Assembly (NCBI GenBank): GCA_026874595.1
Contig: CM049314.1
Coordinates: 70,322,300-70,386,299, forward strand
Direction of reading: 5' to 3'
Length of the DNA: 64,000 bases
Source: Sipunculus nudus
Taxonomy: Eukaryota; Annelida; Sipuncula; Golfingiida; Sipunculidae
The position numbers and the translations under genes were made by a program. Shown in pieces: positions 28,101 to 60,100 of the stretch; position 1 is the stretch's first letter, and each line of letters opens with the position of its first letter. Below the pieces are notes generated by a model. The model worked only from the letters and a program-made list of their open reading frames with translations. It was not told where the DNA came from and made no database searches.

Positions 28101-29549
28101 CTGTATATCTGCATAAGGAGCACAATTTAAAGATAGAGAATAAAACTAAACAGATTACTATGTTTCCTTTTCTTTTACTTTTAGGCTTTAAAGCTTTAGT
28201 TAAAAAAAATTATTTGTATAAACTAAAATCTTTTTGTTGATAAAATTTTTTAATCTGCCCAGGTATACAAATGTATACAGAATGCATATCTTAATATATT
28301 ATCAGTTTGCAGTTTTCATGTAAAATGTAATCATTATTAAAAATAGCTTTTCCCTTTTACAAATTGTATTATGCCTATTAGTGCTGGTGTCCTGATACTG
28401 AGCAGTTTGTAGTTGTATACTGCTGTGTAGCTTGATGTTATTAATTAACTGGCCAGCACACCAGTTACCTGTGATATAGATAGCTCAGGTGACACATTGA
28501 AATGTTCAGCTGTCGTCCCATGGGCAGACATCAAATTAAAAAAAATTGCAGTACCTTCATGTAAGGCACAAAAAAAGTATGGTTCCCAGGCACTTCTTTT
28601 CAGATATCAGTGTGGGTGGGCAATATATCATTTTTTACTTTTTTAATGTTTTTTTAATAAAAATGTCATATGGTCAGGGAAAAGCATGAAAATACCAGAA
28701 TTTTTTTGCTTTAAAGGTAAAAGCACTACGAAACAAAGGAAATCTTATCAAATTTCTATTATTTACTTCCTGAAAGATGAAAATCAAAATAAAAATTGTT
28801 GAAGGGGGGGGGGGGGGTAATATTGATGTGGGGGTGCCTGTGAACCATACCTTTTATTTTTTTTTTGCCTAAATAATAAAAAAAGCCAACACTTCCCCAT
28901 TTGCTGTGTTCTGTCTACTCTCCAGGTTTTAAAGAGAGGAATGTAGTGTCGGGAATCTGTTAAAATTTCATGATGGATCATCAATAAAAACGGTTGACCT
29001 CTACTGACTGATCATCAGAAATAATCCTTTTTTTAAGTGTATGAAATTTTTGACTGTACATGACCTGTACATCCAGTCATCTGGTATATATACAGGCCTA
29101 CATGTTCAGTTAATTTTAGTTAAAAGTCAATCTGGCCTACTTGTGTACATATAGTATGGAGCTTAATTTAAGTGAACACAGAATTTTCTAAGGTTTTTGC
29201 ATTAACTATATGGAATCATACCTTCCCTCATAACAAAGCCTTAGTTATTTGCAAAACTGTTATTGATTATTGGAGTGATTGCATCATTTTGGACCAACCC
29301 ACAGGCAATCGATAAAAATCTATCATCAGCCTATCACTAGAAATGTGTGGGGATAAAATAATAACATTTAGACTGTAGTCCTGGAAATTTGTTATGCCCT
29401 CTGTAGGTACTTCAGAAGGTTAAGTGAGAATTTTGCTCGTAAAAATGAAATGCCCAGTTGCCGAGACTAATGTATGCCTGAAAATAGTTAATGATAAAGG
29501 CGCCCCCTCTGGATTCGCCACTGATAGCACATATCCGCCGCAGATTTAA

Positions 29550-29588
<39 letters not shown>

Positions 29589-32500: not shown

Positions 32501-35500
32501 ATATTTTATGAGGTCAGAGGTCACCCTATACACAACAGCCTTTTATGCATGTTTGCTGTGCTCTTGTTGGTGATGTTGTGAAATTGTCTTAAAACATCTG
32601 TCCTAAACACATTACATTGTACAAAATTGCAGACAGGTAAATGAGAAGGCAAACAACGCTTTAGCACATGGACAGAGATCCAGTGTGTTGAAATATTTTT
32701 GAATCGACAAATTATTTCTTAAAGTAGCATGAAAATTTGAAAACGTATATAACAATTCTGACACCCCTAAAAACCATGCTAATTTTGTGTACTAAAAATG
32801 TGGCCTCCATCATCTCTAGTTCGTGTACAAGGCCAGAGTGTGAGACCCTTTACCTGGGCAAGGTTTTGGTTCATAATTTTAAAAATCAGACTTGACATGT
32901 TATTGTCATGTTCATATTTTATTTTTGTTTTTATTTTGATATTATCTTAAATGAATGCAGGACAGGATTGCCATATGTTGTGTACATGTTTAAAAGTTTT
33001 ATTTTCATACTATATTACAGATGACAATGGCAGCAACACCTGGCCTGAGGTTGTCAAGTTTCTATTTGACTGCGCCAGCTCTAATGATCCAAACCTTAAA
33101 GAGAGTTCACTTATTATATTTGGGTAAGCAGATGTGTCAGGTATAACATCATGCTTATTTCTCATTAATTTTTTATAGCCAGCACAGGATATAACAGGCA
33201 GATATTATAAGTAAAAAGTCCACTGCAAATTATGAAATGTCTTGTTGATTATTTCATTTCAAAAGTTGCACATTTAAACAATTATCATAGCTGATGTTTG
33301 TGATTTCTTCAATTATCCTTTTTAAACAGCACTTGTCTGTCAGCAGGTATTAGACAGTCACTGAATATTTGGGGTAATAATTATGAAATTTTTAAGCAGT
33401 TTGTCACTACCTGAACAGGAATATATTGCAGTAGTCAGAATTGATTAAAAATGCCAAACCTGCACTTAAGTAAAAACTTCCTGGTAATTTTTACAGGGCT
33501 GTACCTGGTATCTTTGGTAACCAGCAAAACCAGTACCTGGAGCACATACGACAGATGCTACAGCAGTCACTGATGTCACAGTCCCAGGCAAATGTAAGTG
33601 ATGCTCAGTACAAAATTGGGACTAAAACACAAGTAGTTGCAATTATCAACTCCAAAAATCAGAGCAAAAGTCATAGAGTCTGATTGGAGAATTTCCAGTA
33701 TTGATAAGATTCAAATTTGGAGGTACTGTAAAATCTCCACTAAAACCGCGGTTTAATCAAGAAATTAAAAATCTTGAAATCAGGTTGATTTCCTGAAAGC
33801 ACTGTGCGGTTTATACTGGAAGGGTTTCCTGAATATCTTCCTGACAGACATCGTTTTTGGGCCGGCGAGTGGGCGATAATATTGCAACTTTAGAAGCAGC
33901 AGTCTCGCATGTTTGGCAGCCCTGTGTAAATGTATTATTTATGATTATTTGTTATTTATAAATTAAATGTTGCTGATTAGTTTTCGTGTGATATATAACT
34001 TGTTATAAAATCTTGGTAATTGTCACCAAATAATACGTTTACAACAACACTGCTGTAACACACAGCGGCTCAATTCGTTGGGCATGGTCAAGCAAAATTG
34101 AAATAAAAGCCTACTTTAAACCCATTTGCGGCATTATTTAGCAATGATTATTTGTTTAAAACGTCAAATGAATAAAAAGCTGACATCGTAAAGAGTCACA
34201 CAATGGCAGACGATCGTTTTAAAATCAAGTTTGAGTGCCGCCATGTGCTGAAACGCCCCGGTATTCTGCTAAGAATATTTTGAACGGCTGTATGCGGTGG
34301 GTGGTAAACAGAACAGCCACCTATTTCGTCCCAGCGTGCCTTGCGCGAAAACTGCCATGACAAAATGGCTCCCCACACGGAAATTTTCTTCAGGAAAAAA
34401 ACTTGCTTACCCCGACTGGCCACTTTAATTTTACCTTAAAATCACTCGTTTTCAAGCGTCATGTTTCCTATACGTGCGTATCTCACCAAGGTAACTTCAG
34501 TTACTTTTATATTTAGTTTAGTTGACCAGCGATGTTTTCAAACACACCAGCAAATTGTGACTTGGAGCGATGTCAACGTACGATGTGACGATGATAATAC
34601 CGAAGTAACCGGTATGAAAATGATTTGAATCTTCCGAGTAATTCCAGAAAATGAAATTTTCTTATCAAAAATTAAGATTTTAAAATATTCCTTTTAGAAT
34701 TAAAATATACAGTGACTTGAAATGGATAAGCAGAATATTTTTTCCAAAATATAATGACAAATCAGTAGCAAACAAGAATACGGCATGGAATATAAAATCT
34801 GTATAAACAGGCAGAGGTTCACCGGCCCTTACGTCTTCCCAAACATCATGCTTGAGTGACCCTGCAAAAAAAGATTTATGATGTATTTAAATAAAATGCC
34901 CAAGGAATTTTAAAGTGGACAGGAATGGCCGAGTCGCAACCTACGCGAGTTCATTTCTAGATGATAGCTTGATTGTGTTTTTTGTCAAATCATTCCGTAG
35001 CGAAAGTTGGTGCTGTTTTAAAGGGGGGTTCTTGAGCCTCTCGCAGTGTCTCACCTGGAATTTCGGCGAAGTCTGGGTGCGGTTTAAATCTGAAGTGCGG
35101 TTTTAAGTGGAGATTTTACGGTAGTACTGTAAATATTGGGATGGGGCAATTACATCTTTTGTGCACCCTCCTCCATTTCTCACTAACATCATATGTGTTG
35201 TTTCTTAAGCCCAAAACAGACTAATGTGCGCGTTACGCATCATGCCTGCGCCACACAAGCAGCTTGCAACAAATTCAAAACACACTAACACGCACGACAC
35301 GCATCAGATTGGACGAAATTAACCAAGCACCTATTGTATTTTTTGTTTATCTTTTTAAAAAAAAGTAATTTTGATAATAAGCATTGGTTTAATTGTTTAC
35401 AAATATGTATCTTTTTGTGACTAAACCTGTTCTAAATATGACAGAACTCAGTCACTATTCTTAACGATATTTATATATTTGTGTTGCTTTGTTGCACATT

Positions 35501-38500
35501 TTCTATCCAGATATAAATCAATAATTATAGTTCATTGAATTATAACAAATGTTTTACCCACAGTTAAATATAGAATGCCAGTGCTGGGGAGGGAAACCCT
35601 CTCTTTAGTCATGTAATTATCATGAATCCGCACGTGGCAAATGGCTTCACGTGTCAAAAATAGCTGACGCTTGATGGATGCGCGTCACGCGTTAGTCTGT
35701 TTTGTCATTGATAAATAGAGTGGACAACATTTTCCAGATTTGACGCTTGACCCGCACGTGACAAGCGCGTTAGTGTGTTTTAGGCTGTAGGGCCAAGCAG
35801 GTGTTTTACTTGTTATGAAGGGTTTAGACATTGATCCATATTTCACAATCCAAAAATAATGTCTTTCATGTATCTTACAGTTCTTAAATTTTAAATGACA
35901 TCTGTCATCAATACAATTTGCCAAATCCACAGTCATTGTATTTTGAGATCTGATTAGGGCAATAAGGCTAGGGTAGTTGTATTGATGGGTTTTCCAGTAG
36001 TTTAACATTTAAGATTTTATATTTTAGTCAAAAAGCATAAAGTAAATGCACTATACCATGCCTAAAGATATAAAAATGGACTAAAGTTTATATGGATTAA
36101 CTGCAGGATATTTGTCCTAGTGTCTCATATAATGAAGAATAAGATGAAATTTTCTTCAAGCTGACTAAGTGTTCATTAGTAAAATAACTTTTAAGTGACC
36201 AAACATTTTGTGTTGTTACAGGTACAAAGTGCTGCTGCCAAAGCCACATTGACATTTATCCTTGCTAACGAGAAAGACACCGCCATCCACGTGCATTTTA
36301 AAGATCTACTGCTGGGGGTGCTACAGGTGAGATGAACACTGTTTGTTTTATATTTCATTTTTAGCCACAGCCTTTGAGGCTGAAGGGCTGTTGTCGTCAC
36401 CCAAGCTGTTGGTCCGTCCGTCTGTCTGGCGTGTATACATTAACCTTGGGAGCAGGATATCTCCAATGGATTTACCATAGGAAATTTATTTCTTGAGGCA
36501 GATGTGTATAAACAAAATCTTGGTCAAGTTTGAAGATGGGTGGCTTGACTTATTTTTCAATGTTTTACACCGAATTATAGAAAAAAAATTCAGAAGCTTA
36601 TTTCTCTGGAATCACTTGGTGGATTGTTATAAAACATGCTATGATTATTGGCACTGATGGTCTGTAACTGCTGCACAGGGTTGGGGGGCCACCTCCAATT
36701 TCTGATTTTAAAAGAATTTTTATCAGATTTTTCAATTTTGGCCTTGTGAGCAGGATATCTCCAAAAGTACTAACACAGGGATTTCAATTATTCAGTTCTT
36801 ATACATATCAACAAAATCTCAGTCAAGTTCTAATGGTTGACCTTGACCTACTTCTTAAGGTCACAGGGTTTATAATAGAAAAAACTTTGAAACATGGAAT
36901 GGTCATTGGCCTTGATCATTTAAGTGCCGCATGACTTACAAAGGCTAGGTGCCAGACTTACAAAGTTACTACATACCTCTCTAGTTCCAATTTTCATATA
37001 GAACAAGAGACATATGTACAGATATACATCCATGTGAGAACAAATATTACATGAATACTTGTTACTGTTACCACCCATAAATACTGCTCTTTTGGCTGAG
37101 GGCTTTTGTCAGCTTTTGCTGATTTTCTAGTTACAGTAGAACCTACCAATTTCTGTTTCTTGTCCTGCACAAGAGAGAACCAGCACAGTGAACTTTATAG
37201 AATGCTCTGTTCAGTTGAGCACTGTTTAAATACGCCCATCTGAGACAGGATGTGATTTGGTATGCTTAGTCCAGCCACTCATTAACTTTAACTGATGCCA
37301 TGATAAGTTACTGGGGCTTTAATGGATTTTCATGATATTCACCATAAGTACCTATCCACGCATATTTAATGAGGTCAGAGGTCACCAGGCTTCTTTTTGT
37401 GTTGCCACTAGGACATCATGAATAAGATAAATTTTCATGAAAAACAATAGTGTATTAACCCCTATAATATCTCACCAAAGTTCCATCCCATGCAAAATCC
37501 ACACATACTAAATGAGGTGAGAGGTCACCAGACTTTGATGGTGCATGATGCCTTCCTAAAACCAGATGAATTTTTCATGAATCTATAACATATAATATGT
37601 AAATATCATAAATATTTACCAGTAGATTTTCTCACCTGAATTAAATTCTCTCCATACATATTCATTGAGGTCCGAGGTCACAATACGTATGACTGGCTTA
37701 CTATGCTGCATTTGCTTCCTCTGGGATTTATGGTAATTATCATTTATTAAAGGTGAAGGTCACCAAGTGGGACAGATTTTAGGAATTACTCAAAGTATGA
37801 CCAGTGTGTCAGTGGTAAATACCACATGGACCACGTGACGAATGCCATTTTCTTCTAGTCAACTCGTATTTACCATCAATTCCAAAGGTAGTGAAGGCAG
37901 CATTAAGCATTCTTGTAGTTGTTTTCTGTTTCTTTGTTTCTAGTAATAAATGATTCTATTTAAGCTAAGTATGATTTTGTCCCTGCAAAAAGAGTAGCAT
38001 TACAGCAATAAAGAAAAGGCAAGATGTAAGTTTTCAATAATAATATATTCTGTTTTGGTGTAGTCACAACTTAAAAAGGTGTTTTTGTCATTTTTTGCAG
38101 GTGTTAAATACAAGCATCGAGGCCCAGGATGATGACACAATATTGAAGACTTTGGTGGAGGTTGCTGAGTCCGCTCCGAAATTCTTACGATCACAGATGG
38201 AGAACCTGATGACCCTTTGTCTAAAGGTTTGTGTTACAATACATTTACAGCAAACGTAATACAGCCTAGCATATTATCCGGTCTTCTCAGGGACAGGTCT
38301 TCTTAACTTTGGCCAGGTTTGTGTGGATCTGGTTTTTAATGGGCCAAATTGATATGGTCAAGGTTCACTGGCATAGTTCCTGATAGATGGTGCTGCAATA
38401 GACCCTTCTAGAAATAATGTCAGATTCCTCAGGATATATGGGAACATTGGAAAATGAACCCCCCCCCCCCCCACTTGGCAACATTCCTGGCATTTAAGAT

Positions 38501-41500
38501 CAAAGCCAGACATTTCTTAGGTAAACCCACTGAGGAGTTAAATTTCAGTGGTTTGAGGCCACCAATGTTAGTTGTATTATAGGTATATAACTGATTTAAC
38601 TTAGCAGCGGAGAATGTATTTTAGGAATAAAATGTACATTTGAGTTTGATTTCCTGATATATTCTTTTAGGTTTTTTTTAAGTGAGATGGGATATACATA
38701 TCTTAATTTAGAATTTTGATAAAACTAATATTCAGGTATAAAATAGGTCAGTGTTGATCATTGTATCCGTAGTCATTAAATGTACCTTTCATGAAAATCC
38801 AAAGTCTACAAACTGTTCAATCAGCAGTTAAACTTTTTAGGGTTTGACATTTCTCTGTTGTCTTCAGATGTATCATTCAATTTAATTATTTATAATTAAT
38901 ATTTTTCCTTCAGACAACAAGTAACAGTGAGCTACAGGACTCGTGGAGACAGCTTTCTCTGGAGGTGATTGTCACGCTGGCGGAAACAGCCCCAGCCATG
39001 GTCCGCAAACACTCCAAATTCATCCCACTGCTGGGTGAGTGTGTATAAAGTATGGCCAGAGGGTTTGTTCTGTCTACTGGCAATAATATAGACATACAAA
39101 AATAGTAGTAAAAGTTTTAATATTAGGCCAAAAAAATGTATGGTTCTCAGGCACTTCAGAAATTAGTGTGGTCAGGCGATATTTTATTTTTTACCTTTTT
39201 TTGTGTGTTTCCATAAAAATATATGATCAGGGAAAAGTATGAAAATAACAGAATTTATTGCTATACAGGTAAAAGCACTACATAACAAAGGAAATCTTAT
39301 CAAAATTGTTGTATTTTATCTTCTTGAAAGATGAAAATCAAAAAAAAATTTTTGGTTCAGGGGGTTAAAATTGAAGCGGGCGGTTTTGAGAACCATACCT
39401 TTTATTTTTTTTTGCCTTAATATTTTATTTTTGCGGTTGACACTCTTGGTTAGGTACTGACAGTATCATTCATTTATAACATCACTTTAATTATTTAAGT
39501 ATAAGATAATAATTTAAATGGTGTCTGCTTGTATGTCTTATTTACTGTAAAACCAAACAGATTTCCCCGGTGTTCATGCGTACATCATATTAAGACCTCA
39601 TGCTTACTTTTTTAGGGGTTTTAAGGGCATTATCCTTTTTTCTATTAACATGAATGATATAATTTTTTGCATTACATAACTGAAGTGATAACATAGAATT
39701 GTAATGGGAGAATGATCTATAAACTATGAATTCCAAACCTTGTTAGTGTAATATTGAAAAGTGAATAAAATCTCAGGGGGACATACACTTGCTGAATAAA
39801 ATTTAATTATTGAGGCAGGAAGAAATATTGTATACAATGTTCAAAGAACTATGAATACGTTTTCACGTTTGTTTTGTTGTACAGTTCCTCAGGTGTTGGC
39901 GATGATGGTGGAACTGGAAGAGGATGAGGAATGGTCAACATCAGATGATGTTGATGATGAAGATCAAGATAGGTAAGTAGTCAACAGCCTCCAGACCCCA
40001 GAAAATAATAACTGATCTGTTACATTTGCATGTATCATAGTTACATTATTGTGAAAATTTTGAATAACTTACTTTAACATTATTGTAACTTTTTGTAACA
40101 TTATTGTAACTGACCTATACTAAGATAATAGAAAGACTCTGTCCCTTAATAAGGGGTAGAGCTTTTGATCTCTTAATAGGCTTACCAGCCCCCTTCTCAT
40201 GTCATGAAATCGTACTGTAAGTTAGGACTTGGGTCTGGTCAGAACAGAAGTGTTATTTCACTCTAAACTCAGAGTTTCTCAAAACTAGTTATGGGGCTGC
40301 TATTTTGCATACACACTAAACCCTTGATGTTGAAAGATGCATGTCAATATTAATGGGTATGACGCCAGCTATTTGAAAGGGGTATTAGAGCAATTATAGT
40401 ATAAAATATGATGAATTAATTTGCAGCAATGCCATCGCAGCAGAGAGTGCTTTAGACAGGATGGCCTGTGGACTGGGAGGAAAGACCATGCTCCCCCATA
40501 TAGTGAACAACATTCCTCAAATGCTGCAAAACAGTAAGTGTTACCACTTGCTAGGTAATTATTTGAAATTCAGCATCACTTAATTAGTTCTCTCTGTGAC
40601 CTTAAGACTCAGGTAAAGGCACTGTGGCAGGTGTCCAAAATCAGCCCTCTGTTACCAGATATCTCCAGAATTACTGTAGCTAACCACATCAAATTTTGTA
40701 TACATATTTATCTCTTAAAATATAAGTTAATAACTTATGTTGACCTGTGTTCTTGCATTAAAATCATATTTTCATTATCTTATTGCATTGATACAAGCTG
40801 TCATGGACTCTGCAGCACAGAGTGTAAAAAGGACTTCTGGGTCTCCTGCTTGTAACATTGTGTAATATTTATTTGATATACTCTATCCTGAAACAGACTG
40901 TCAAATTAGAACAAAGTGATAAGAAAAAAATTCTTAAATTGAAATATGGTAAAGAATGAATATGACAGGCATGATATCAGGAGAAATATTTCCATGAATT
41001 GAAGTAGGTTCAGTGAATAAGGTTGAGTGACTACTTTATGCTGATGTTAGTATATATAAATTTGTGTATATCATCTGAGAAAATGTATCCAGTATGAAAC
41101 AAAATAAAAAAATAAGTTACAAAAGTTTTAAGCCAAGCCTTTCTCTGCTAATATTAATATGATATGGTTACAGGTGACTGGCGGTACAGACATGCAGCAC
41201 TGATGGCAATATCAGCGTGTGGGGAAGGCTGTCACAAACAGATGGAACAGATGCTGCAAGAGATAGTTCATGCTGTACTACCTTACCTAGCTGACCCTGT
41301 AAGTACTGTCCAAGTTATGTAGGACTTCAGTCCGACTCAGTCCATTTTTAAGAGACTCAGACTTGGACTTGGACTCAAGGGTTCTAGACTCTTGGCTTTT
41401 ACACGAACTCAGAAGTAAAGACTTGAGAAATTGTGCTGAATCCATATCAAGTCAAGTAGAACAAGCAAATTCAAGGAATTTATGTCCTCCACTTCCGCCT

Positions 41501-42098
41501 TCAAGTCTGGTATGATTTTAAAGTCTGTGGTGACTAAGTGCAAATAGTTTTAACCATACTCAACAGGTGGCAGCACATGGCAGTTACTGCAAAAATTCAA
41601 GTAATTTATGTCACCCGCTAGCAACATCTGTTGGTGATTAGAGACACTAAATATGCTGATTCATCAAATCAATAATAAAAGATGCTATTGTAATATTATC
41701 TTATCAGAAAGACACACCGAAACCAATCCCGTCCAGGGTATGCATAAGAGCAACCACTGACCCATATTTGATGCCTTAGGGTAAAGTTAATAGTTTATTA
41801 TCAATTTTCATTTATTCCAGCACCCCCGTGTCCGGTATGCATGCTGTAACGCGCTTGGCCAGATGTCCACAGATTTTGGCCCTGTGTTCCAAAAGAAATT
41901 CCATGAGAAGGTATTTTGAACCTATTTATTCTAGCATTTTATTTGAAAAAATTATGAAGGATAATCATAGAGAATGTGGAAATATTTGAATATTTAATAA
42001 TATTCTGTAAAATATAATCACACTCTGATGGCCAATTTTTATCTCTGAACTTTTTATTATAGTAATAATTTTAATATTGACCCTAACTTTTAAACTTC

Positions 42099-42178
<80 letters not shown>

Positions 42179-45100
42179 TAAATATATAAGAAAGAACTTT
42201 AAAAAACAGAAAATAGTTTTAATGTGATGAATTTTAAATGCCTGAAGAATTTCATGAAAGATATCTCTAACTTTTTGAAGCATTCTATCCAATTTTGAAG
42301 TATGATGCCAAAAATTATTATTTTTGTTTGTTTAATTGTTGATTAACATTGAAATTCACTGAAATAAAGATTACTTGAACATCATTTGTATTTAATATGT
42401 TAGCTGTTTGACTTGGTACCACAGAGTACTATTCTTATATATTTTATATAATGATATATTTACAGGTGGTACCAGGTCTCCTGAGTCTAATGGATGACAG
42501 CGCCAATCCACGTGTCCAGGCTCACTCCGGCGCTGCCCTTGTCAACTTCAGTGAAGACTGTCCTAAAGGCATCTTAACACCATACCTCGACACCATCATG
42601 TCCAAACTAGAACAAGTCCTTACTGCCAAATTTAAGGAGGTAGGAATCAGTCTATATCTTATCTACATACGTCGATACCATCATGTCCAAACTAGAACAA
42701 GTCCTCACTGCCAAATTTAAGGAGGTAGGAGTCAGTCTATATCTTATCTACATACCTCGATACCATCATGTCAAAACTAGAACAAGTCCTCACTGCCAAA
42801 TTTAAGGAGGTAGGAGTCAGTCTATATCTTATCTACATACCTTGATACCATCATGTCCAAACTAGAACAAGTCCTCACTGCCAAATTTAAGGAGGTAGGA
42901 ATCAGTCTATATCTTATCGACATACCTCGATACCATCATGTCCAAACTAGAACAAGTCCTCACTGCCAAATTTAAGGAGGTAGGAATCAGTCTATATCTT
43001 ATCTTCATACCTCGATACCATCATTCCAGAATTAGAACAAGTCCTAACTGCTAAATATATTGAGGTAAGAGCTGATTTCACCAGTTCAGAAATTGGTTCT
43101 GGTTCAGCAGAGATTCTTTTGAGTAATACTGCTGAAGGGGGGGGGGGGGGGTTTACTCTTGATTATTTTATCATTTGTGGATGAATTTTCACACTGCTCT
43201 GTTTTTGCTGCTACGATTTAAATTCTGACAACCTAATAAATATGTTGCCACCTTTTGTGACACAGTAGTGTTTTTACACATTTATGTATGAATTATGATT
43301 GAACAGCACTTTACTGCATCGCTGTGCTAGGGGGCACTTGAGGTTTTAAAAACATGGATGTATATAGGTGCAGTTATTGAGTTTTCTTGAGTTTTACTGT
43401 CAAAGTACCGACTGATCTCCGACTTTGCATTATATACATTACTTGCTCTGTTTTGAATCATAACCATATGATTTATTACCATAACACTATAAATAAATGT
43501 TTCATGTAATTCATGTAATTAAACAATTAATTTGCAAAAAATCATGTTTTGGTTTTTTATGTTTATGACAGACATTAATATTTTCTTTAATTTTTTTTCA
43601 AATATAAAATGATGAACATATTCTTTGAAAATACTTATCTTATGCCCGTGATATTATTTCGGACATTATTTTCCAGTCAGGTGAGAAGGGAACCAAGCTG
43701 GTGCTAGAACAAGTGGTGACGACCCTCGCGTCTGTGGCCGACACAGCAGAAGAGAAGTTCATACAGTTTTATGACAGGTACAAGTCCTAAGCTTAAAAAT
43801 ATTACTGTCAGGTCTTGTGATGGGCCAGTGATCTTTTATAATTGATGATCAGTCAGCTGATGCTTTATGATCTGATCATCATTCTTGCAGTGCCTTTCGT
43901 GGAAGCCAAGAGAAAGCATATGCTTTCATGTAATTCATATGAGCAAACTTTTGAAAGGTCTGTGCATATTAATGACTTCAAACCTAATGTTATGACATGC
44001 ACTTAAAGACTAGAATTATGACATATGGTATATAAGCAAATGTTTGGGCGTATATGTCAGTTGAGGCAATGTGCAGGTCTGTATACAGTCCAAATTTACA
44101 GTCTCCTAAACAACCAATTAATTCTGAGTATCGTTAGGTAATGGTCTACTGATTTTCACTGATGATAGATCATGTTATTACAACAGATTCCCAATAGTAG
44201 TTATGCCTAGCCTTCTTGTGAGTCATGTTTTATTTATGAGATGAACCAACCTCTTCTGAATCTCAAGGCTGATAGGTTTCACAGTTTTGCATTAAAATTA
44301 AGTTTAACAATATAAAAAGTCAGATAAATTGACTTAATTCATAAAATGAGATTAATATGTTTACATTTTGCCATCAATATTACAAAATTGATTGAGTACA
44401 AAAATGTATGAAATCATATTGTCTAACAAGAAGTCTTTTTATCTTTATTGAGAGACTTTGGCATAATTTATCTGTCATTACAAAAAAAAAATAACAGGAC
44501 TTTTTTGTAATCAACGAAGGCCCACACAAGAGATATTTTGTGTAAAGATGTTATTAAATGTGTTTAACAGCATTCTTTTAGGCTTCAACACAGCACCTCT
44601 TAGCCACCTCCTCAGTCATATCCTAATGTTTGTGTTAATGGATTATCCCCCATTGAATGATTTTTGTTTTCTCAACTGTTTATCAACATAATTTTATATC
44701 TCAGTTTAGTAATAAAGCTAATACAGCATAAGATAAGCAGTTCAACTGAAACATCTCACGTTAATCTTTTAACCTTGTTCTGTTTTTGACCCAGTGTTTT
44801 TGTTATGTTTTCAGGTTTATGCCCTGTCTGAAATACATCATGGAAAATGCAAATGGTCCTGACCTTAGATTACTCAAGGGCAAAACCATCGAATGTATCA
44901 GTCTAATTGGTCTGGCTGTTGGCAAGGACAAGGTGAGATAATGTATTTTTACTTGAGGAATATAAATCTTATGGTTGAAAATAGTGACAGAACATTGTGT
45001 GGATATGATTTCAGTAGAGAGAGGTGACAATTTTATATGTGGATAGGATGACTTGAACACAGGGATGAGAAACATTAATTTGGCGTTGGAAAAATGATTA

Positions 45101-48100
45101 CATAATGTGGTTGGCAATTTGTTTGCGAAGGTTTCAAATTTGTGATAACTGCAACTCAGGAACTGATGCTAAAAATGAAACCATCATAAATATATACAAT
45201 GCCTCATCCATACAGGGTAATGGTCATTTATAAGCAAATCTCATGGACACTTTATATCTATTATATCAATGTGACCACATCTTTAGGTTTAGAAGTTTCA
45301 AGGCGGAAGATTGATATTAAAAATTATAATATATTTTATCTTGCCTACAATTCAAAGATTTATATTATAAATATCATCAGGTCTTTCATATAATCTGTCT
45401 GAATCTTTGAATCCCTCCTTCCTTCCTTCAAAATATTATTTCCTTCAGCTTACAATTTATTCTGGTAAAGGTACACATTACTTGAGAAACAAACATAAGC
45501 TTGTTTCTAACTTCCTCCTAAAATTTGCATACTTATGAATATTTATAACACTTTACCATCTGTATGAAACCAGCCTCAGTATGCAGTGGATTCTGTCTGT
45601 AAGAACACCTGCCTTATAAAAAGACCTCTCTATCAAGACCACATTCTGGTGAACCAAAAGCATTCATATTGGTCTTAACTGATCTATCTACTGGTAATAA
45701 GACATCCTGTGCATTAAGAGCACTTTTGGCCAGTCCCAAGGGGTGATCTCATATCACAGGTTTTACTGTACAATCAACTCACCTTTGCACTGTTCACAAA
45801 GGCATTAATCTTTCCACTGCTGTAGGGATCAAATGTGTGGTAATTTAGAGTTGGGTATATAGAATGAGGAACTCTTACAAAATCCAGTGGTTGAGAATTT
45901 AATTAACTGGGTCAATCAGGACATTTCTAACAGAACAAGAAGGAATTGTTTGTGCTCAGCTCTTTATAAAAAAAAACTTTGTTATTGGTTCATGTTACAA
46001 AAGATTCATGCTTTATTTTTCATTTCAGTTTTCTCAAGATTGTAAAGATGTGATGCAGCTGTTACTACGGACACAAACAGAACAGAGTGATCTTGCTGAT
46101 GATGATCCTCAGGTAAGATGACCACCAGGGGGCAGTATACAACCTTTTGGTTAAGACTTTGGCCATAGGACCTTAAAGTATAGAATACAAAGCAAGCAGC
46201 TTTTACATACAGATATATTCTCTGAGCCAGATAAACATATTGACTGGTTGTATGAAATTTGGTTGCTCTTCATATCAACATGTTATTCAAATGTAAAGAT
46301 TTTTAGCTCAGCTGACTATAAGTCATCTGAGCTATAGTCGTGGTCCAGTGTCCGTCGTCCGTCCGTCTTTCTGTCCGTCCGTCCGTCCGTCTGGATGTCC
46401 GTCCGTAAGACTGGCACGTTTCCACACCGTTGGACCTACAAATCTAAAATTCGGCATACAGTTAGATGTCCCCAAAATCTCCTACCATGCTGAAAATTGG
46501 GTCAATAGGACTTCATTCCTTCGAGATATTAAGGAAAAACCTCAATTTTTTATTAGAAATCTATTTTCACACTTCAGGACTGCCTAATATCAAAACCACT
46601 CATCTGGTTTTCTTCATATTTACCATAATTATTCCTCTATATAGTTCCTATACACATGCCAGATATTAAGTCAGTATTATATAATTTAAAAAAGTTATGG
46701 GCCCAAACATAATGGACTTTGTAAAAAAATCAGGAAGATATTTGGTCACTTAAGACCAAAAGTGTTAAAGGTGGGGACTTTTTTCCAGTAATACAACTTT
46801 AAAAAATCAAAATTTATTGTATACCAAAAATTAGATCAAAATCTGTTAAATTTTTTTAAATATTGGCAAAAATATAAAATTGGTACCTTAAATTTTGCCC
46901 AACTTTGGCCACGGCACGTTTTTTTCCTGTAAGTACTGTGGATTTAATTTTCACAGCATGTATACATAAGGATTTAATCTGTTAAAATCTGAAATTTGAA
47001 AATAAAAGCTGCAAAATTAGGCTAGTTATTGAATTTTTTTGGAGGCTCTTGTTGTATTCCCTTACATTGTCAAGCAGTCCACTTTGATGACTGTAGGTCA
47101 TTCAGTGCACATCTCTGCTCCCCAGGCTGTTGGCATAATTTTAGATGTCCCCAAAATCTCCTACCATACCGAAAATTGGGTCATTAGGACTTTGTTCCTT
47201 TGAGATATTAAGGAAAAAAACTCTGTTTTCCATAAAAAAAAGCTATTGTTACACTTCAAGGCTGCCTGTTTTTGATGGTATTTAGTATTCACATTCTTTC
47301 ATACATTTTCTATGAACATACCAAAAATTAGGTCAGTATTGGGTATTATTTTGAAGTTATGGGCCAATACATAATGCAATTTTTTTTAAAAATTAGGAAA
47401 TATATTTACTCACCTAACATGAGAATTGCTGAACTTAGAGACTTTTTTTTTTCAGGAATATAACTTTATTTAATCAAGATTCAATTGTTTACCCAAAATT
47501 AGATTTGAATTTTGCAAATATTTCAAGTTATTAGCATAAATAAAAAATCACTACCTTAAATTTTGTCCAACTTTGGCACTGTTGATTTAATTTTCACAGC
47601 ATATATACATAAGGATTAAATCTTTTAAAATCTGAAATTTCAAAGAAATTGATTGGAAAGAATAGCTTTTATTCATGTTTTCATACACCATGTCAAGTGT
47701 TATTTACATCTAGCCCATGTAGTAGTACAGCCTTCACTTGCATTATGTAACCCACCCCAGGCAGCTTGCCTTGGGTCAGCCTGGCCACTACCAGCAGGCT
47801 TCCCCTCTGCCCTGCACTCCCCCCCCCCCCCCCGATGGTGCATAAACTAGATGAATGTTATTATTTTCTGTATTTGATTCATTCTTATTCTAGGCTATGC
47901 TACATTTAAGATTTTGTATTGTACCACCAGGGTTACAATGATTAAAGTGTACATTTAATTGTGTCCACAAAGTGGTATATTGCTATGAAAGTGTGGATGT
48001 TCATCAGATAAGTAATTCCTTACTTCAGAAGAGTAAAAACTTCACCAGGTGTGAAATTGACTATTAATTCCAGTAATAAATTAAAACTGGGATAGTAATT

Positions 48101-51100
48101 AGCACAATGATATTGTTTGGCCCTCATTCAATCAACAGTGTGTATACTTTATTTGAAAAGATGTTTTATTTTATCAAATTTACTTTTATTTTATTTTGGT
48201 GGACAAAATTAAGCATGTACTGAAAACTCCAATGTGCAAAACTTTTTGATAGTGATTCAAGGAATATTCTTGTAGATGCCATGTTGTGGCATTATTTTCT
48301 TTTAAATTCAATTAAACATTTATGATTTAAAAATAATAAAATATATGTGTATGCATAATATGACCAAATATGAGCTACACTCTGGATTTATGATGATTGC
48401 AACTTTTGCAACAATTCTAATATTTTAACTTATAGTTTCAGTTTTTTACTCTGTATATTTAATGATTGCAGCTTTTGCAACAATTCTAATATTTTAACTT
48501 ATATTTTCAGGTTTTTTTATTAAAAATTTATAAAACCTGTAAATAAAAAAATGATTCAGATAAAAACTTCTTAATGGAAAAAGTGGATATGCTTAAAAAA
48601 ATAGGAATATATAAACTTAAATGCATTATTCCCTTGAAAGTGAAATAAAGGTATTAGTCCATTCTGTCCACTTGCCTGTCCATCTGTAAATTTTCATATG
48701 CATCACAGTATCTCAAAATTTTACTGTTTTTCTTCATGACAGTCTTGTCAGAGTATTAGTTTGCAATCATATATTTAGAACTTTACTATAACCAAGTAGG
48801 AGGGCCCCTTTCCTCTTAGCTTTTCATATTCTTATATAAATGAAAAACATTACAATAGAATATTTCTACATCCACCTTTGTGCTGCCCTCACTTTTCCCT
48901 TCTCCAAACCCCATCCCAAAGTCAGCCTCAGTAAGCAAGAACAAGATGAATCAGATATATTCGTACTTTAATATTTTGTATAACTATTCGTCCATAGGTA
49001 CCTATGTACATGCCAGAAATTATGTCAATATTGTGTAATATGTAGACACAGTGGGCATCACAATAATGTACCTTATCAAGACTAAAGAGATATTGTGTCA
49101 TACAGTCACAAATTCATAAATCACTTCATCAGCATAGTTAATCATAACATCATATCTGTCAAATTGAAAGCTTGCAGACTACCATACACTTTAGATCCTT
49201 CAACAAATAGCCTTATCATCGTTCTACTACTGCTTATTACTGCTGTCATTGCATTCATATTTGCTCAGAAATACCGTATTTATTCTAATTTGGCGACCAC
49301 TTAAAAATAATTAATTTTCTCAGAGGTCGAGACAATAGAGGATATTTGAAAATTATCTTCCTGCAGAATTTGTGGTGGTCGAGATTTTAGAGGCACGCGG
49401 TTTAATAACCTTCCCTAGAGCCGCAGAGCCGCTCTGACACTCGAGCGGTCATATGAATTGAGTGATAATTTGGTCGTTTATAAGTTTGTTTTGTTAGCTA
49501 AACAGTATTTCCTACAAACGGGCTTTCAACCGTCACATGAATTACATGGTGTCCACAAATGATTAATGAAACTGAGCTCAATCACTTTACAAAATGATCA
49601 CTACTTCGCGTATGTACGATGACATAGACGGCAACGGGGCTTCCCCGTACTTGGTAAATATTATTGCTAATTATCCCACGTGAATCGCACACGAGACACG
49701 TGCGTACCAGGAATGGTACACAAGTTTGCTTCGTCACGGACACCCATTTGGAACTTGAACGCTTTATCATGTTTATATATTATGAAAAACGCATCTTTGT
49801 ATCTTCAAAAATTTTATTGCAAACAAGTTTGATGTGGATGCTCAGTGTAATAAGAATCTTGTCAGATACAAACTGCGGTGCCCGTGAGAGACGGAGGCAT
49901 TACACCTTAACATCGTCGACAGAAAACATTGTGGGCAGTCGCGAAATTAGAGTCATTTTAGAAATTATGCTTTCAAAATATTTTTTGGGGTCGAGAAATA
50001 AGAGGGATCGCCAAATTGGAATAAATACGGTATCACAATTTTCAACCCCTTCTAAATAAATAAAAAATAAACCACTATATTTGACTCTATTAATCCATCA
50101 GTCAGGTAATTTCATTTATCATTTACTCACATATTACATTACATTCCTTTATAATAGCCCAACATGTCCATGATATGCATAAGCTTTATCTACTCGATAT
50201 AGTATCACAGTGGGGAAACATTTATAGTCCAATCACGATCAGCTGAGCACCGTGACTCATGGGTCCCTTGTTAATGATTATTTTCCAGTTGTTATGAAAT
50301 AAAAAACTTGTCCTTTAGCCAACAGACCTTGCTCTTTATTGGTGTGTTCTGAATCATTCTTTTTATCTCCAGGTCAGATAAAGGATAATTAATGTTCCTC
50401 CCTAATATGCAAGAGCCTTAATATGCCTTATTAATTATACATATATATTTCAATTCATGTTTTTGTACTGGGAAGTTCTTTACTTAAATGTAGAAACTTT
50501 TTTTAAACATACCAAATTGTAATCTTTTGCGATTGATATACCAATGCATAAATTTTATGACATATGTAAGACATCTAAAATATCTTATTAATTCAGTGAT
50601 ATTACTAAGTGACTATCACTGTGCAAATCTGACTATTATAACTCTGTGTAAATTCAGATATCCTACTTGATATCAGCATTGGTCCACATGTGTGATATCC
50701 TGAATAAAATACATGTTTCACTGTATAATAACCTGTGTGATGATATCTAACAATATCTATCTGTGACTGACAGATATCCTACATGATATCAGTTTGGGCT
50801 CAGATGTGTAAGATATTAATTAAGTACAAAGTTTACTGTGTGATTATTTCTGACAATATTTCTCTCTCTAGATATCCTACATGATATCAGCATGGGCAAG
50901 GGTGTGTAAGATCTTATTTGAGTACAGAGTACACTGTGTGATTATATCTGACAATATCTCTCTCTCCAGATATCGTACATGATATCAGTGTGGGCCCGGA
51001 TGTGTAAGATATTATTTAAGTACAGAGTACACTGTGTGATTATATCTGACAATATCTCTCTCCAGATATCGTACATGATATCAGCGTGGGCCCGGATGTG

Positions 51101-54100
51101 TAAGATATTATTTAATAACAGAGTACACTGTGTGATTATATCTGACAATATCTCTCTCCAGATATCGTACATGATATCAGCGTGGGCCCGGATGTGTAAG
51201 ATATTATTTAAGTACAGAGTACACTGTGTGATTATATCTGACAATATCTCTCTCCAGATATCGTACATGATATCAGCGTGGGCCCGGATGTGTAAGATAT
51301 TATTTAAGTACAGAGTACACTGTGTGATTATATCTGACAATATCTCTCTCCAGATATCCTACATGATATCAGCGTGGGCCCGGATGTGTAAGATATTATT
51401 TAAGTACAGAGTACACTGTGTGATTATATCTGACAATATCTCTCTCCAGATATCGTACATGATATCAGCGTGGGCCCGGATGTGTAAGACATTATTTGAG
51501 TACAGAGTACACTGTGTGATTATATCTGACAATATCTCTCTCCAGATATCGTACATGATATCAGCGTGGGCCCGGATGTGTAAGATATTACTTAAGTACA
51601 GAGTACACTGTGTGATTATATCTGACAATATCTCTCTCCAGATATCGTACATGATATCAGCGTGGGCCCGGATGTGTAAGATATTACTTAAGTACAGAGT
51701 ACACTGTGTGATTATATCTGACAATATCTCTCTCCAGATATCGTACATGATATCAGCGTGGGCCCGGATGTGTAAGACATTATTTGAGTACAGACTACAC
51801 TGTGTGATTATATCTGACAATATCTCTCTCCAGATATCGTACATGATATCAGCGTGGGCAAGGATGTGTAAGACATTATTTAAGTACAGAGTACACTGTG
51901 TGATTATATCTGACAATATCTCTCTCCAGATATCGTACATGATATCAGCATGGGCCCGGATGTGTAAGACATTATTTGAGTACAGAGTACACTGTGTGAT
52001 TATATCTGACAATATCTCTCTCCAGATATCGTACATGATATCAGCATGGGCCCGGATGTGTAAGATCTTATTTGAGTACAGAGTACACTGTGTGATTATA
52101 TCTGACAATATCTCTCTCCAGATATCGTACATGATATCAGCGTGGGCCCGGATGTGTAAGATCTTGGGTACAGAGTTTCAGGAGTACCTACCGCTTGTGA
52201 TGGGACCCGTCCTCAAAGCTGCCTCCCTCAAACCAGAGGTGGCGCTAGTTGACTGTGAGTAGCTTTGTAGTGTTCCTTATCATATCTCAGCGTGGACTGG
52301 TGCCCTGAGCTGCTTTTGGTTAACTTCAAAGTTTACAAACTTAAGCCACAGATTAATAAATTAATAAAAGGGGAAAGGTTCCAAGTCAAAAATGTTTTTA
52401 GAAGGATCAGTGTTTAACTGACTTTTAGAGTATGAGTATATTGTAATAGCTCAAGACTTCTACAAATGTTAGTCAAATATTATTCAGTAAAACACCAAGT
52501 AGAAATGCCATAGGTGGCTTTTACCTTGGCTTTACAATATATTCCTGTGTGTAGAAGTTTATGTTAGGCTGAAGCTTGAGAAAGGAATCAAGTAAGTGAA
52601 AAATAACTGACTTAGTATTTCTTGACTAAAATTTATGACTACTATTCCTGACTTGAATTCCAACTATTGTGTATTTCAGCGGATGACATGGCATCCATGG
52701 AAGATGACACAGACTGGCAGTTTGTTACTATTGGTGACCAGGTAAAAATACACTTATAGTGATACCTTAAATCATGATGAGTGCATTTTGTCAAATTATC
52801 AGTACTTCTGTTTTCATGCTTCTGTGGAAACCGTGTAAAAATTTAACTTAAGAGTGAATTACTTTAGACAATATTGCAAAATTTTTTTTTTTTTTAATTT
52901 TCACTTTTGTTCAAGGTCCACAGGTGTAATGTTTGTATTGAAGACCTGAAAAGAGTAACATTACAGACATTTAACTGCAACATTTTTTTCACAGCACCAA
53001 AACTACTGCATAACATTGTTATAAGTATAGAGCCTCCCGTAGGTTTAATAATTTATACCCTAAAATGATGTAACAAGAACTTTCCAGAGTAATCCACTCA
53101 TGATAAGACAATGGCCGTTTTCTGATAACAGAAAAAAATCAGTGTTTACACAGCTAGTAGCCATTTTCCAAGCACACCTGTCAATTTCTTTGGGACCTTT
53201 CTAAAAAATAGCTATATAGAAAGAATTGACCAAAAAGTATATAACTGATAAATAAACCAAAAACTTAAATTTGTAATATCATATTTGGGAAGGTATGAAA
53301 TGTTCAAATTTTGATTTGGGCTATTTACACTGCAGCAAAGCTTTGGTATCCGCACTGCTGGACTGGAAGAGAAAGCGACAGCCTGTCAGATGTTGGTGTG
53401 TTATGCTCGTGAGCTGAAGGAGGCCTTTGCTCCCTATGTTGAAGAAGTTGTCAAACTGATGGTTCCACTGCTAAAATTCTACTTTCACGATAGTGAGTGA
53501 TTGTTCCTGAAGCCAGTATGTGGGAACTTAATGTCCACTGAGTGTCAAATTGTTCCTTTGAAAATCCTGTTTATTATATGAAACAGGAATCTTAAAACCC
53601 AGATCATTTTTTGTATGGTCTAAAAATAAAAATACACCAGACCACATGTTTTAATGTCAGAATACTTTGAGCCCTGAAATAGATCTAAATTCCGATCATA
53701 CTGCCTTTGGACCACATACAGTAAACTTCAAAATTACAACCACTAGTTGGACTGCTTTTTTGAGGTGGTCATCTGAGTGAGATCTTACATAAAGAGCAAA
53801 AATGAATCGGGACTGTGATCAAGTGGTCATAATTTTGAGATGGTCGTTAAACAGAGTTGGTCGTTAAGTGAAGTTTTACTGTAATATATTTAAGTCTCAC
53901 TTTAGCTTCTTATATCAACTTAGTTTAAGTTTAACACTGAAACTTTGCTTGAAATACAAATATTTGTCTGTGCATCATCCTTTTTAGGCAGTGCCACCTG
54001 CTGGCCAGTATCCTACACTATTGTTTTATTTTACAGGTGTCAGAACAGCGGCAGCAGAGTCCATGCCATTCCTTCTGGAGTGTGCTAAGTGTCGAGAACC

Positions 54101-57100
54101 GGGGTATTTACAACAAATGTGGGCATTTATCTCCCCGGAGCTGCTAAAGGCCATTGACACTGAACCAGAAACAGATATCAGAACAGAACACATGCATTCT
54201 CTGGCACAGGTGAGGCAGAAGGGCTCTCTTTAATATTAAATCTCCTGTGTGGGGAAGAAAATAAAAATGGGGGACAGTTCCAGTTCATCCACATCTTAAC
54301 TTGATATTTATTTGAATTTTGTTAAATAAATAGGATCATGTCTGTTGGTGCTACATCGTTACTGGTCTAAACAAAGTCTGAAATTTGGAAAGAACTGTAG
54401 TTTTAAGTGAGCATTACATCATGAAAGGTTCATAGTTTTACTGTTGTAATAATTCATTTTTGAAAATTAAAAAGTTAAAAAAAAAAATTTAATTAATATA
54501 TAATAATGAAAAAGACATTAATTGGTAACAGTTATGATGCAGTCAGTATGATAGTTATATTAAGCATTATTAAAAAAAAATGTAAATTTGCCTTTTGTGA
54601 ATTTTTATTTTGATGATTTTATATATTTTTCTTTATGATGTCAGTGTATAGAAAAGATGGGCAAAGGCTGCTTGAACGATGAACAAATGTCAGAGCTGGT
54701 CCGTATTCTCGATAAAATTTTGGTGGAACACTTCGACAGGCAAGCCAAAAGACAAGGTAACATTGATTAAATGCTGTATCTCTTTTAAAGCCATCTTTGA
54801 TTGATGGAGGAAAAGCATGAGATATTACGTTTCCTTTCTGATGTAAAAAGAGTGTACCCTTCTGGCAGAAAGTGTGGAATCAGAATTTTTAAGTGTAAAA
54901 TCTGAACCAGTTGTGTGGTTCATAAAATCATTAATCAGTGTATGGACAAGATTTAAACACTTCTGGATTATATTCACCAAAATTCTTGCATTTTATATTG
55001 AATTGTCAGTATGCCCTCAAGATATATATTTCATTTTCAAATATTTTGTTTGTATCATAAATTTGCTAGAAACAAATGTATATTGATATTATTTCTCTGA
55101 GAATAGTGTTATCTTTTCTGGGAGCAAATTGTACAAAAATCCAAAATTGTACAAAAACTTTTGTTACTTCTGGGGGCATTTGCTTGAAAGATGTTTTACA
55201 TATGTAATATCATGTGACCTGGACATCATGTGACCTGTCATGTGACCTTTTTTGTTCTAGAACAAAGGAAAGATGAAGACTATGATGAGGTTGTAGAAGA
55301 AACACTCCTTGACGAGGTAAGACGTTTGTTTCTAATAAAAAAAAAAATTATCTCTCATGAATACATATCCATGTTGATTTTTTATGAAAGTTGATTTATT
55401 TTCCTAACATTATGTAGATAATATTGTCTTCTCTGAAACTTTTTTTCTTAGTGAGTCTGTTTCCTAATCTTTGGCATAATTCTGTATCATGAAAATGTCT
55501 GAAATATGTAAAAGTAATTTTATTCATAAAAGCTAAACTGCAGTTTTCGGAAGATAAAATTTGTACTGGTCATAAAGATAATTATTGTATGCCTGTCCTA
55601 TAGGAGACTTAGTATGGTATGCTCACCGTCCATCTGTTAACTTTTCACAAAACTCACTCTAACTACCAAGATTATCTTGCCCAAATTTGATTCTGGGCAA
55701 AATTATTGAGGTCAAATGTCAGTAGGCCTCTATTGTGTCACTGCTGTATCTTTTCCAGGAATATTATAGATTTTAGTGAAATTAAAAGGAAAATTAAATA
55801 TTTTATCTCACAAATGATCAATTCATGGCAAAATCCTTTCATATATTTAATGAGGTCAGAGGTCACCAAAATTTGGTGACACCATGATAACTTGCTACAA
55901 ATCTGGATTTTCATGAAACTTAAATTTACCAATATATTTTCTCACCTGAATTAAATTCTGGACCAAAATCCTCGCAAATTTAATGAGGTCAGAGGTCGGA
56001 TTGTCTTTAACGTTTTGTGTTTCAGGATGATGAGGATGTATATACTCTAAGCAAGTTGTCAGACATGATGCATGCATTGTTTGGGACACACCAAGAAAGT
56101 TTCTTACCTGTGTTTGATAGACTGTTGCCACATTTTGCTAAACTATTGGTGAGTGTAACTTTAACAAAAATGTTTATTCCTCTGTTGATTGTATTTCAAG
56201 ACTTGTAAAGCATAAAATTTTAATATGATAGACGATATTCATGGGTTCATTTAATTCTTAATTTTATATATTTAACTTGAATACGGTGCTTACTCTTGGG
56301 TTAAATTTTAAAAATGGTAAAACTAAAAAACAGAAACAGTATGGAAACAAAGAATTGTATATGAATATTTGTTGTATTTGGGTCAGTTTTACAGTTGGGA
56401 GGATTCAGTCAGATTCATATAGAGTGTTAAATAATAAAAGAAAGTTGAAGTGATACAGAAATCTACACTGCTTAAAATAATTTTCAAAGATTGACAAAGA
56501 TTACTTTCCTTATCCAAAAAAAAATGTTCTTTTTACAAGAAATCTTTAAGGTATTTTTCTTGATTTAAAGGCAGCATGCTTAAAGTCAAGAAAATATATC
56601 TAGATTTTCTTAAAAAGTCCCGTGACTTTTGATCTGTTTCAGGGTGCTGATAGACCTTGGCCTGACAGACAGTGGGGACTTTGCATATTTGATGACCTAT
56701 TAGAACATACAGGCCCAGTAAGTATATGTTATGCCAGCAAAACATGAAGATAATCATTTGTTTTAACAAGTATTTATCTGTGTATTTTCTTAAGATTTCT
56801 CCACAGCTCTGCCCACCTGTTTTCTCCCTGATTACATTTTTATAAGGCAACTGAGCTCAAGAGGAATAGTTCATAGCTTAGTGGTTGAGACATTGGACTC
56901 AGGACTGAAGGTTGTGGGCTTAAACCCCTGGGGTTCCTGGCAGGCAAAAATTATGAAATCCCTTTATTGAACCTCCAAGAGTTCCTCAGGCTTAACAATA
57001 GGTTATGGCTAATGGATTATTCCTAGTATAATACATGTAAAACCTGCAATCAAGAAAGCTTTAAAAACATTATACCATTCTTATCATATTGTTGCCTTTA

Positions 57101-60100
57101 TCTTTATGCAGTAGGAAGCGCCACCTAGTAGCCAAGGACTTGTGCTTCAAAGAAAAATAAAGAAAAAGTATTGTCTGCAGAGTTATACATAGTAATTTCC
57201 TTGCAGGAGATGAATTAAGTATATCTTATATTATAACATTTCTTTGCAGCACTCCTTGAATTACCGGCAGTACTTTCTGGAGCCAATGTTGCGTTTCACC
57301 TGTGATAGCCAACCAGAGGTCAGACAGGCAGCTGCATATGGTGCAGGAGTTATGGCCCAGTTTGGGACTGAAGCATACGCACAAGCCTGTGCAGGTAAGC
57401 TGTTCTTTTCTGATTTTATCAGACAAGCCAGTTTACAATATTTTTTTCAGGATATCTACATTAGAACTTTGAACTGTTTTGGGAAAAAGGATTTTGTTTA
57501 AAATCAGTGTATACAATTCAATTTAAAATGAATATAACTCTTAAAAGAATTCTCAAAACCTTTTCATAAGTATGAATCTGAAAAATGTTAAATGTTTTGC
57601 ATTATAAAATGATATTGTTTTAAAGCATTTTGTGTTAAGCCTTATATTTCTGTATATTTTGTTGTTTTCAAATTTCCTTATTTAGTTTTATTGTACTTGT
57701 GGGATATTGTGTGCAGTATTTCCATACATCAAGGCAGCCAGTCAGTAACTACATTGGAGATTTCTTAAACTGCAAATGTGATGAATCTTTAGCTCATTGG
57801 AAATCTTACATTACAACTAGAAATCTGCACTCTAATGTTCGCAAGCCTCCACCATTTTGGGATTCCCCAACCTGTGTTTGCATTAACTTATTCAGCCCAT
57901 ATTCCCAGGTTCATTCGTACATAAATGACTCTACATGTATGAATATTGAGAGTTATGTTGAGAACAAACAAACAAACACACACACACACAAATGGAGATA
58001 AATGGTTAATTTAATTAATACTTTTGTGCTGGTATTGATTTGTAGAAGCCCTACCATTGTTAGTCAAAGTAATACAGGATCCTGAGTCACGGCAACCTGA
58101 GAATACTCCCCCGACAGAAAATGCAATATCAGCTGTGACCAAGATTTGTAAATACAATGCCAGCCAGGTCAACATCGCAGACATCCTGCCTCACTGGTTG
58201 TCATGGTTACCGGTCTGGGAAGACGAGGATGAAGCAGTGCATATATATGGATACTTATGTGACCTTGTCGAAAGGTTAGCATGACTAGTTTTGTGATAGA
58301 TCTTAGTAATTAAGATCTGTTGATGGTAACAAAGACATACTGTAATGCTTACTCAGGTAATAATGTTTGTGCAGCTGTCTGTCACAAAGAGACCACAGTA
58401 ATTGGAAGGTTTTCACAGTCATAATAAGATGCTTTAAAACCTGATATATAGTTGTTTTTCAAATATACAGAATTTTACTCAAGCACTGGTCTATGACAGT
58501 GTACCAGTTTTGTTGAATGTTTAATTTATGGCAGAAATTTGACTTATGGTTTCAAAAAGGCTATTTAAAGATGATTTTAATATACGTGCCATGCAAAAAT
58601 GTTGAAAATCCATTGACTTTGCTGTCTTCAGGACTTGTTGCCATGACCCCATTTTAACTATAGTGACATAATGATATTTTCATGGGTTACTGTGCAGAGT
58701 CCCTGTCTTAAGCCTTGAATTAATTACTTCTACTGCTCCCAGATGACATATTTAAGTATTACAATAATAGGAAAAAATACTTTTAAAGGTGTGAATTCTT
58801 TTTATGTATATCTTTATTTTGTTATTTTTTTTTAAATGGTGGATTAATACTCCTCACACATGTATTTAGAAATCTTAACCTTTGGTACATAAAATGTTTG
58901 TGTTTAATAAAAAATGTCATAATTTGTTTTGTCTAACTTTGTTGTTACCAGGTAGTAACAAATAACTGAAATGTATAAAAGTGTATTGCAGTGTAGATAT
59001 AAATCCCAAAGGTTTTGTGAACAGATATTATGTTTTAGTCAAATTAAAAGTAGACACACTGTTTGCTCTTTGGTATCACAAAGTTTAGCATATGATTGGA
59101 TCTGTGGTATAAAATCATTCTCCATTTCAGCAACTGCCTGCAGATACTTGGGGAGAATAACCAGAACCTTCCCAGGATCCTTAGCATAATTGCGGAAGCG
59201 CTACACAAAGAAGCTCTACCAACAGATAACGAGGTCATTAAGAGGCTGGTTAATATTGTTAAACAGGTCCAGGTAGGTCATGTGACTACTTGCTAATATA
59301 TTCTAATAAGACCAAAAAGGATTGGTTCAGTCTTTGTTTCCGTTTGCACATATAAGAGTGAACTGAATGAAGTGTCCGGTAGTACAACGAACACCGACCC
59401 CCCCCCCCCACAACCCCCCCCCATTAAAAAAAGGTGCTTGACTGAGATTATTTTGTCAGGAATCCCTTAATTTTTTTTCATGCACATGTGCGAGTATGCA
59501 GATTAGATGGACACATGGGTTCGTCACTGTTACAAAATCATATGAGCAATTTTTCAAGTATAAGCACATGGATGCACATGAGAGTTTTAAAATTACAATG
59601 AAACTCCCATTTATTGAAATTGTCAGGACCAGGGGATTTGTCTTTCAAATATGTGCCGGTATGGAAAAAGTTGTAAACATTTGTATGTTTAATTGGATCA
59701 TCAATGTGTTCATAATAAACAAGTGTCTAAAATAGAGATGTGTCTATAATAGAAGGGTGTCTATAATATAAGGGTAGCTGGGCTTTCCCTGAATATCCTT
59801 GATATTATTTTATATACTGGTACTTGTAACATTATTATAATAACAACCCCTGATACTTGTAATCAAACGTTGTTAGAAGCTTATGGTGCTAGTTACGAAT
59901 CGCAATGTGTGATATTTAGTTTTCATCACCAAAAAATGTCCCAGAAATGGATTTTCTGTGACTTGTAATGTCATGACTCATGAATTTTCAAGAATTGAAG
60001 AAACTTAAGAAATTCTACGATTCTAGCTGTCAATTTTCAAAATGCAAAAATACTTTTAAGAAATACAATTTTATAAATATAGTAATTTACAGAAATTTAG

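Follow-up and report, generated by a model that had tools for sequence, protein, structure and literature searches.

The 64,000-nucleotide stretch of Sipunculus nudus DNA analyzed here (assembly GCA_026874595.1, contig CM049314.1, positions 70,322,300 to 70,386,299; hereafter the window) carries a gene for importin-5, IPO5, in which two exon boundaries lie within tandem arrays, one built from the splice acceptor of exon 16 and one from the splice donor of exon 12. The gene was modelled by spliced alignment, with a human importin-5 sequence as the guide, which by eye agrees with PDB 6xte over 94 residues. The first IPO5 exon was not found in this alignment, and the exons are numbered from the resulting partial model, so that the exon next to the acceptor array, called exon 17 in the first-pass annotation, is exon 16 here. 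The features at the locus are as follows.

24816..59293, plus strand: IPO5 gene, modelled as 26 coding exons in an open frame, with introns of the GT-AG type; the end of the last exon is approximate
42466..42639, plus strand: IPO5 exon 12; the donor array derives from its 3' end
42581..43067, plus strand: donor array of 85-bp units, each with the terminal 59 nt of exon 12, a GT donor, and 24 further intron bases
46113..52121, plus strand: IPO5 intron 15, which ends in the acceptor array
50658..50969, plus strand: three older, degraded, and frame-broken unit copies with starts at 50658, 50774, and 50872 and lengths of 116, 98, and 98 bp
50970..52121, plus strand: acceptor array of twelve 96-bp units that each combine a copy of exon 16 positions 1-44 with CTGAC, a polypyrimidine tract, and CAG
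52122..52254, plus strand: authentic IPO5 exon 16, starting in phase 0 and followed by the donor GT at 52255

The best matches of the predicted protein, of which 1040 amino acids were used, were importin-5 proteins, with 73% to a protein from ENA and 69% to one from Lingula among the matches listed. In a protein tree of 33 sequences, made up of the window protein and 32 of 120 listed matches that were hand-picked for spread, it joined the 73% ENA protein with a support of 1.0. It fell among lophotrochozoans with Lingula and Lamellibrachia, apart from the lancelet, with path supports within this group of 0.12 to 0.76.

Tandem arrays at two exon boundaries

Exon 16 is 133 nt long and follows an intron of 6009 nt; the other 25 modelled exons measure 56-229 nt. 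The twelve acceptor units begin at 50970, 51066, and so on up to 52026, each is exactly 96 bp long, and the last one adjoins exon 16 at 52122. The Tandem Repeats Finder (TRF) called the region 50771-52162 with a period of 96, 14.5 copies, 95% matches, and a score of 2482, which together with the coordinates confirms the run of twelve consecutive units that the first-pass annotation had described. The CTGAC word and TCTCTCTCCAG, which that annotation had placed in every unit, were indeed present in 12 of 12, and every unit ends in CAG. Each unit also copies the opening 44 nt of exon 16, with 40-43 of 44 positions identical, but the originally proposed extent of about 55 nt was slightly generous, as the likeness past 44 nt requires a gap. 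The exon 16 frame runs through all twelve units into the exon without a stop (384 codons), exactly as had been claimed, and the other two frames contain 24 and 37 stops.

The twelve units are distinguished by 12 variant types and differ from each other by a mean pairwise difference of 0.030 (for this and all such means, units outside 90-104 bp were excluded). At the upstream edge, the copies at 50658, 50774, and 50872 are decayed: the two old 98-bp copies have 14 and 10 differences, none of the three spacings (116, 98, and 98 bp) is a multiple of 3, and reading from the acceptors of these copies runs into stops. The anatomy of array and exon therefore upholds the view that a splice acceptor was amplified as a minisatellite, and the homogeneous interior next to a decayed edge likewise agrees with the suggestion that the near-identity of the copies comes from array turnover.

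The second array, at the exon 12 donor, consists of five near-identical units, the first of which is the real exon end, and a sixth, decayed unit farthest from the exon with 25-28 differing positions. GT follows GAG in all six units. This array is out of frame or meets stops, and each of the five distal donors leads to a stop in the extended exon. Next to the two arrays, the authentic exons 12 and 16 are intact in the spliced alignment. A BLAST search with the 26 exons and their 30-base flanks against a 174-kb region, with a filter that could hide a copy a few bases from an exon, found no nearby boundary copy besides those of exons 12 and 16 when the known exon 16/17 duplicates were set aside; it returned three short distant matches of 23-34 bp. 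TRF found no further array across any modelled exon boundary.

Taken together, we consider it very likely that one importin-5 gene harbors both an acceptor mirage and a donor mirage, as boundary-spanning repeats of this kind are called in lancelet genes (PMC3087553), and that the acceptor array is normally removed with intron 15. The structure is real, not due to chance, and known in kind, and it is probably harmless. A tandem duplication of the exon 16 acceptor region may have founded the minisatellite, and unequal exchange or slippage may then have enlarged it and homogenized its units. Exon 15 would be joined to 52122, and the array would be spliced out inside intron 15. For full-length importin-5 to be made, exon 12 must follow the same default, namely use of the site giving the shortest exon, because the distal donors would truncate the protein.

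Acceptor arrays in downstream IPO5 fragments

When we searched the acceptor array in the organism's own genome (1.43 Gb, 153 contigs), matches were found at three places at least, all on one contig; this number is a lower bound, as only the best candidates were scored. For the analysis of these places, 110 kb of sequence surrounding the window were included. Besides the intact gene, these places are two IPO5 fragments downstream of the window, given here on the scale of the window and on that of the contig.

106240-109851, beyond the window (contig 70428539-70432150): IPO5 fragment 1, array of 27.6 units
133901-138592, beyond the window (contig 70456200-70460891): IPO5 fragment 2, array of 38.6 units

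Both fragments run from the end of intron 15 through exon 16 and intron 16 to exon 17, and no IPO5 exon other than 16 and 17 matched in either of them. Four extra bases shift the frame of their exon 16. The flank 52531-52889 of the intact gene shows 90-91% identity to the fragments. The fragments are partial IPO5 pseudogene copies that carry the acceptor array along. An odd spacing of 116 bp at the 5' edge of the array is common to IPO5 and the second fragment, so the array predates that duplication.

The unit length in the fragments is a different one. Among their 28 + 40 spacings, 98 bp was found in 52 of 68 and 100 bp in 9 of 68, and only two (96 and 102 bp) are multiples of 3. All three frames are riddled with stops, with 53-57 per frame in one fragment array and 74-77 in the other. 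The units of these arrays are homogeneous as well, with mean pairwise differences of 0.041 (27 units) and 0.036 (38 units). Such arrays thus persist and grow where coding is impossible, and the 98-bp unit is likely the older state. While all twelve units of the intact locus contain TCTCTCTCCAG, most fragment units have one or two additional CT at this position (26 of 27 and 36 of 39 units were taken for this comparison). Most simply, the 96-bp in-frame unit would be a by-product: an older 98-bp unit lost one CT in its pyrimidine tract, and this loss then spread.

Reading frame and splice-site choice

The first-pass annotation had proposed that upstream acceptors could lengthen importin-5 by multiples of 32 residues and had called a splice site amplified with its frame preserved unusual. 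Of each unit, the first 15 codons are inherited from the exon and hence open, and the other 51 nt are free of stops with a probability of 0.31 in shuffles and of 0.35 in 51-nt stretches from four introns of the gene, and multiplication by 1/3 for the period gives a chance of about 0.1 for a unit that is both in frame and open. As the twelve units are near copies of each other, they count about once. Across the array copies, a unit length divisible by 3 is not kept: it is found in 12 of 12 inner spacings of the intact gene, and it is absent from nearly all fragment spacings and from all three oldest local ones. The in-frame property is therefore most likely a coincidence, and preservation of the frame for a purpose was not borne out.

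The same holds for the proposed lengthening of the protein, which finds no counterpart among the protein matches listed. None of 120 listed IPO5 relatives (2202 passed) had more than one copy of the repeated block, and in a second protein search with part of the array plus the exon, none of 120 listed matches (149 passed) had more than one copy either. That some transcripts nonetheless use an upstream acceptor and yield importin-5 with 32n additional residues in the HEAT solenoid, as functional or tolerated variation, and that the 96-bp unit was favored since leaks then spare the frame, is unlikely in our view. This idea draws on the fact that all twelve inner units of the intact gene are 96 bp long and open, in contrast to the oldest local copies of 116 and 98 bp and the mostly 98-100-bp pseudogene units, and on the near-identity of the acceptors, which makes leakage plausible. 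However, homogenization reduces the twelve units to about one event with the chance given above, the intron-derived part of the unit was present in none of the 120 listed matches of the second search, the distal donors at exon 12 of this gene lead to stops, and the fragment arrays are out of frame. In addition, a single extra unit already defines an exon of 229 nt, equal to the longest of the 26 modelled, and twelve units one of 1285 nt.

What distinguishes 52122 is its context, as only this acceptor is backed by a complete exon and a donor at the usual distance of 133 nt, and we infer that exon definition picks it by default. Reed and Maniatis reportedly found in 1986, in experiments with duplicated sites, that full exon sequence and proximity decide the choice of splice sites. 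Several observations weigh against such a clean default. Of the 13 acceptors in the 96-bp series, the 12 from 51066 to 52122 have identical last 13 intron bases, and the one at 50970 has a single deviating base among them, so the choice could be leaky. With a crude position weight matrix (PWM), built from the gene's own 25 donors and 26 acceptors only, the exon 16 acceptor scored 3.5, the third lowest of 26, and nine other AGs in 50300-52130 outscored it (4.3 to 12.2), eight of them within the array or the old copies. That the PWM fails to single out 52122 argues against a choice made on sequence alone and allows for leakage, and leaky in-frame use of upstream acceptors is possible. Finally, selection for frame would give the same contrast between the intact gene, with all inner spacings in frame, and the pseudogene loci, with nearly none, although this contrast counts as about one event. 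A further scenario is improbable, in which a 96-bp unit replaced the frame-breaking 98-bp form by a sweep, at the intact gene only, because leaky use of the twelve equivalent acceptors then gives in-frame importin-5 isoforms rather than truncated ones. If true, the unit length of this minisatellite would be the result of selection by splicing noise, and how many isoforms are within reach would depend on the repeat number.

It is quite improbable that the array acts as a decoy or regulatory element, in which upstream acceptors compete for the splicing machinery or form 34-nt pseudo-exons with an internal GTAAGA donor, so that the repeat number tunes output. The donor-like TGT|GTAAGA does occur inside all twelve units, with a PWM score of 5.6 (the 25 true donors have a median of 7.3), but a 34-nt exon would be very short and its length is not divisible by 3, and the lancelet cases are reported to splice normally (PMC3087553, PMC3902484). 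We regard it as very unlikely that the array or its copy number results from misassembly. Copy number is easily wrong in such arrays, and a supplementary legend of PMC3087553 mentions a mirage that was assembled aberrantly in a draft genome; however, the units here differ by 12 variant types, diverged arrays that have a unit length of their own occur at two other places, and the array sits on a 79.8-Mb contig.

Some further properties of the units were examined. All 12 variant types are confined to unit positions 1-58 (binomial p 0.005), and positions 59-96, which are invariant here, do vary in the paralog arrays. Selection on every acceptor as the cause of this invariant tail is unproven, as seven of the 12 variants also occur in the two old 98-bp copies and are thus old themselves; five variants remain after these are removed, and (58/96)^5 is about 0.08. 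A synonymous bias among the unit variants (5 of 12, versus 58 of 288 possible changes) was dismissed, as the numbers are too small and exon ancestry accounts for it. No unit variant makes a stop, which only 17 of 288 possible changes would do. A Pfam search with the translated array returned unrelated families with no single stretch passing, which we took as chance repeat matches, and DNA folding of one unit per array showed no unusual structure (z of 0.16 and 1.28).

Intron 15 contains further elements. Upstream of the array, an acceptor-like site at 50353-50375 (AG just before 50373) has a PWM score of 12.2, higher than that of the exon 16 acceptor. The stretch 46297-47648 recurs several times downstream, at 64.7-66.8 kb and near both IPO5 duplicates, with 68-89% identity and is probably a dispersed repeat. 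Elsewhere in the window, a tandem array with a 337-bp unit, 5.9 copies, and 80% matches lies at 9764-11762.

Comparison with known systems

A splice site amplified as a minisatellite also occurs in the human IFI6 (6-16) gene, which has a repeated splice donor. There, too, splice sites at an exon boundary make up the minisatellite, but the human repeat lies on the donor side, its units are very short, and several of its donors are usable.

The closest counterparts are the mirages of lancelet globin genes. According to PMC3087553, an acceptor-side mirage in BflGb6 has units of 150-160 bp, with six and three units on two haplotypes, and a donor-side mirage is found in BflGb9, mirages having been described earlier in Adh3. 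The same text reports length instability and a homogenized interior from which the edges are excluded, and reverse-transcription PCR suggests that regular splicing is undisturbed by these repeats. In PMC3902484, a mirage is described for troponin C, and similar repeats for PGBD5. Like these, the IPO5 units span the exon/intron boundary, on the acceptor and the donor side, and carry AG or GT splice signals; their inner units are homogenized and their edge units are not (PMC3087553, PMC3902484). Copy number differs among the three acceptor arrays of the S. nudus genome, as seen in one haplotype, which bears only indirectly on length polymorphism. Unlike the lancelet mirages as far as they are described there, the IPO5 case stands in a lophotrochozoan as judged by the protein tree, combines donor and acceptor arrays within one gene, has an acceptor unit that is in frame and open, and recurs in pseudogene fragments.

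A model of intron gain by tandem duplication of exon sequence bearing AG/GT is also discussed in PMC3087553. The tandem duplication of splice signals in IPO5 would provide the raw material that this model uses, but no new intron is evident, and the copies lengthen an existing one. Thirteen near-identical acceptors and five near-identical donors make the gene a naturally occurring test case for how the spliceosome finds the site that yields the normal exon, and the pseudogene copies provide a neutral comparison for the evolution of such arrays. Boundary-spanning mirages, which in the literature we found were reported from lancelets, can now be described in a lophotrochozoan housekeeping gene.
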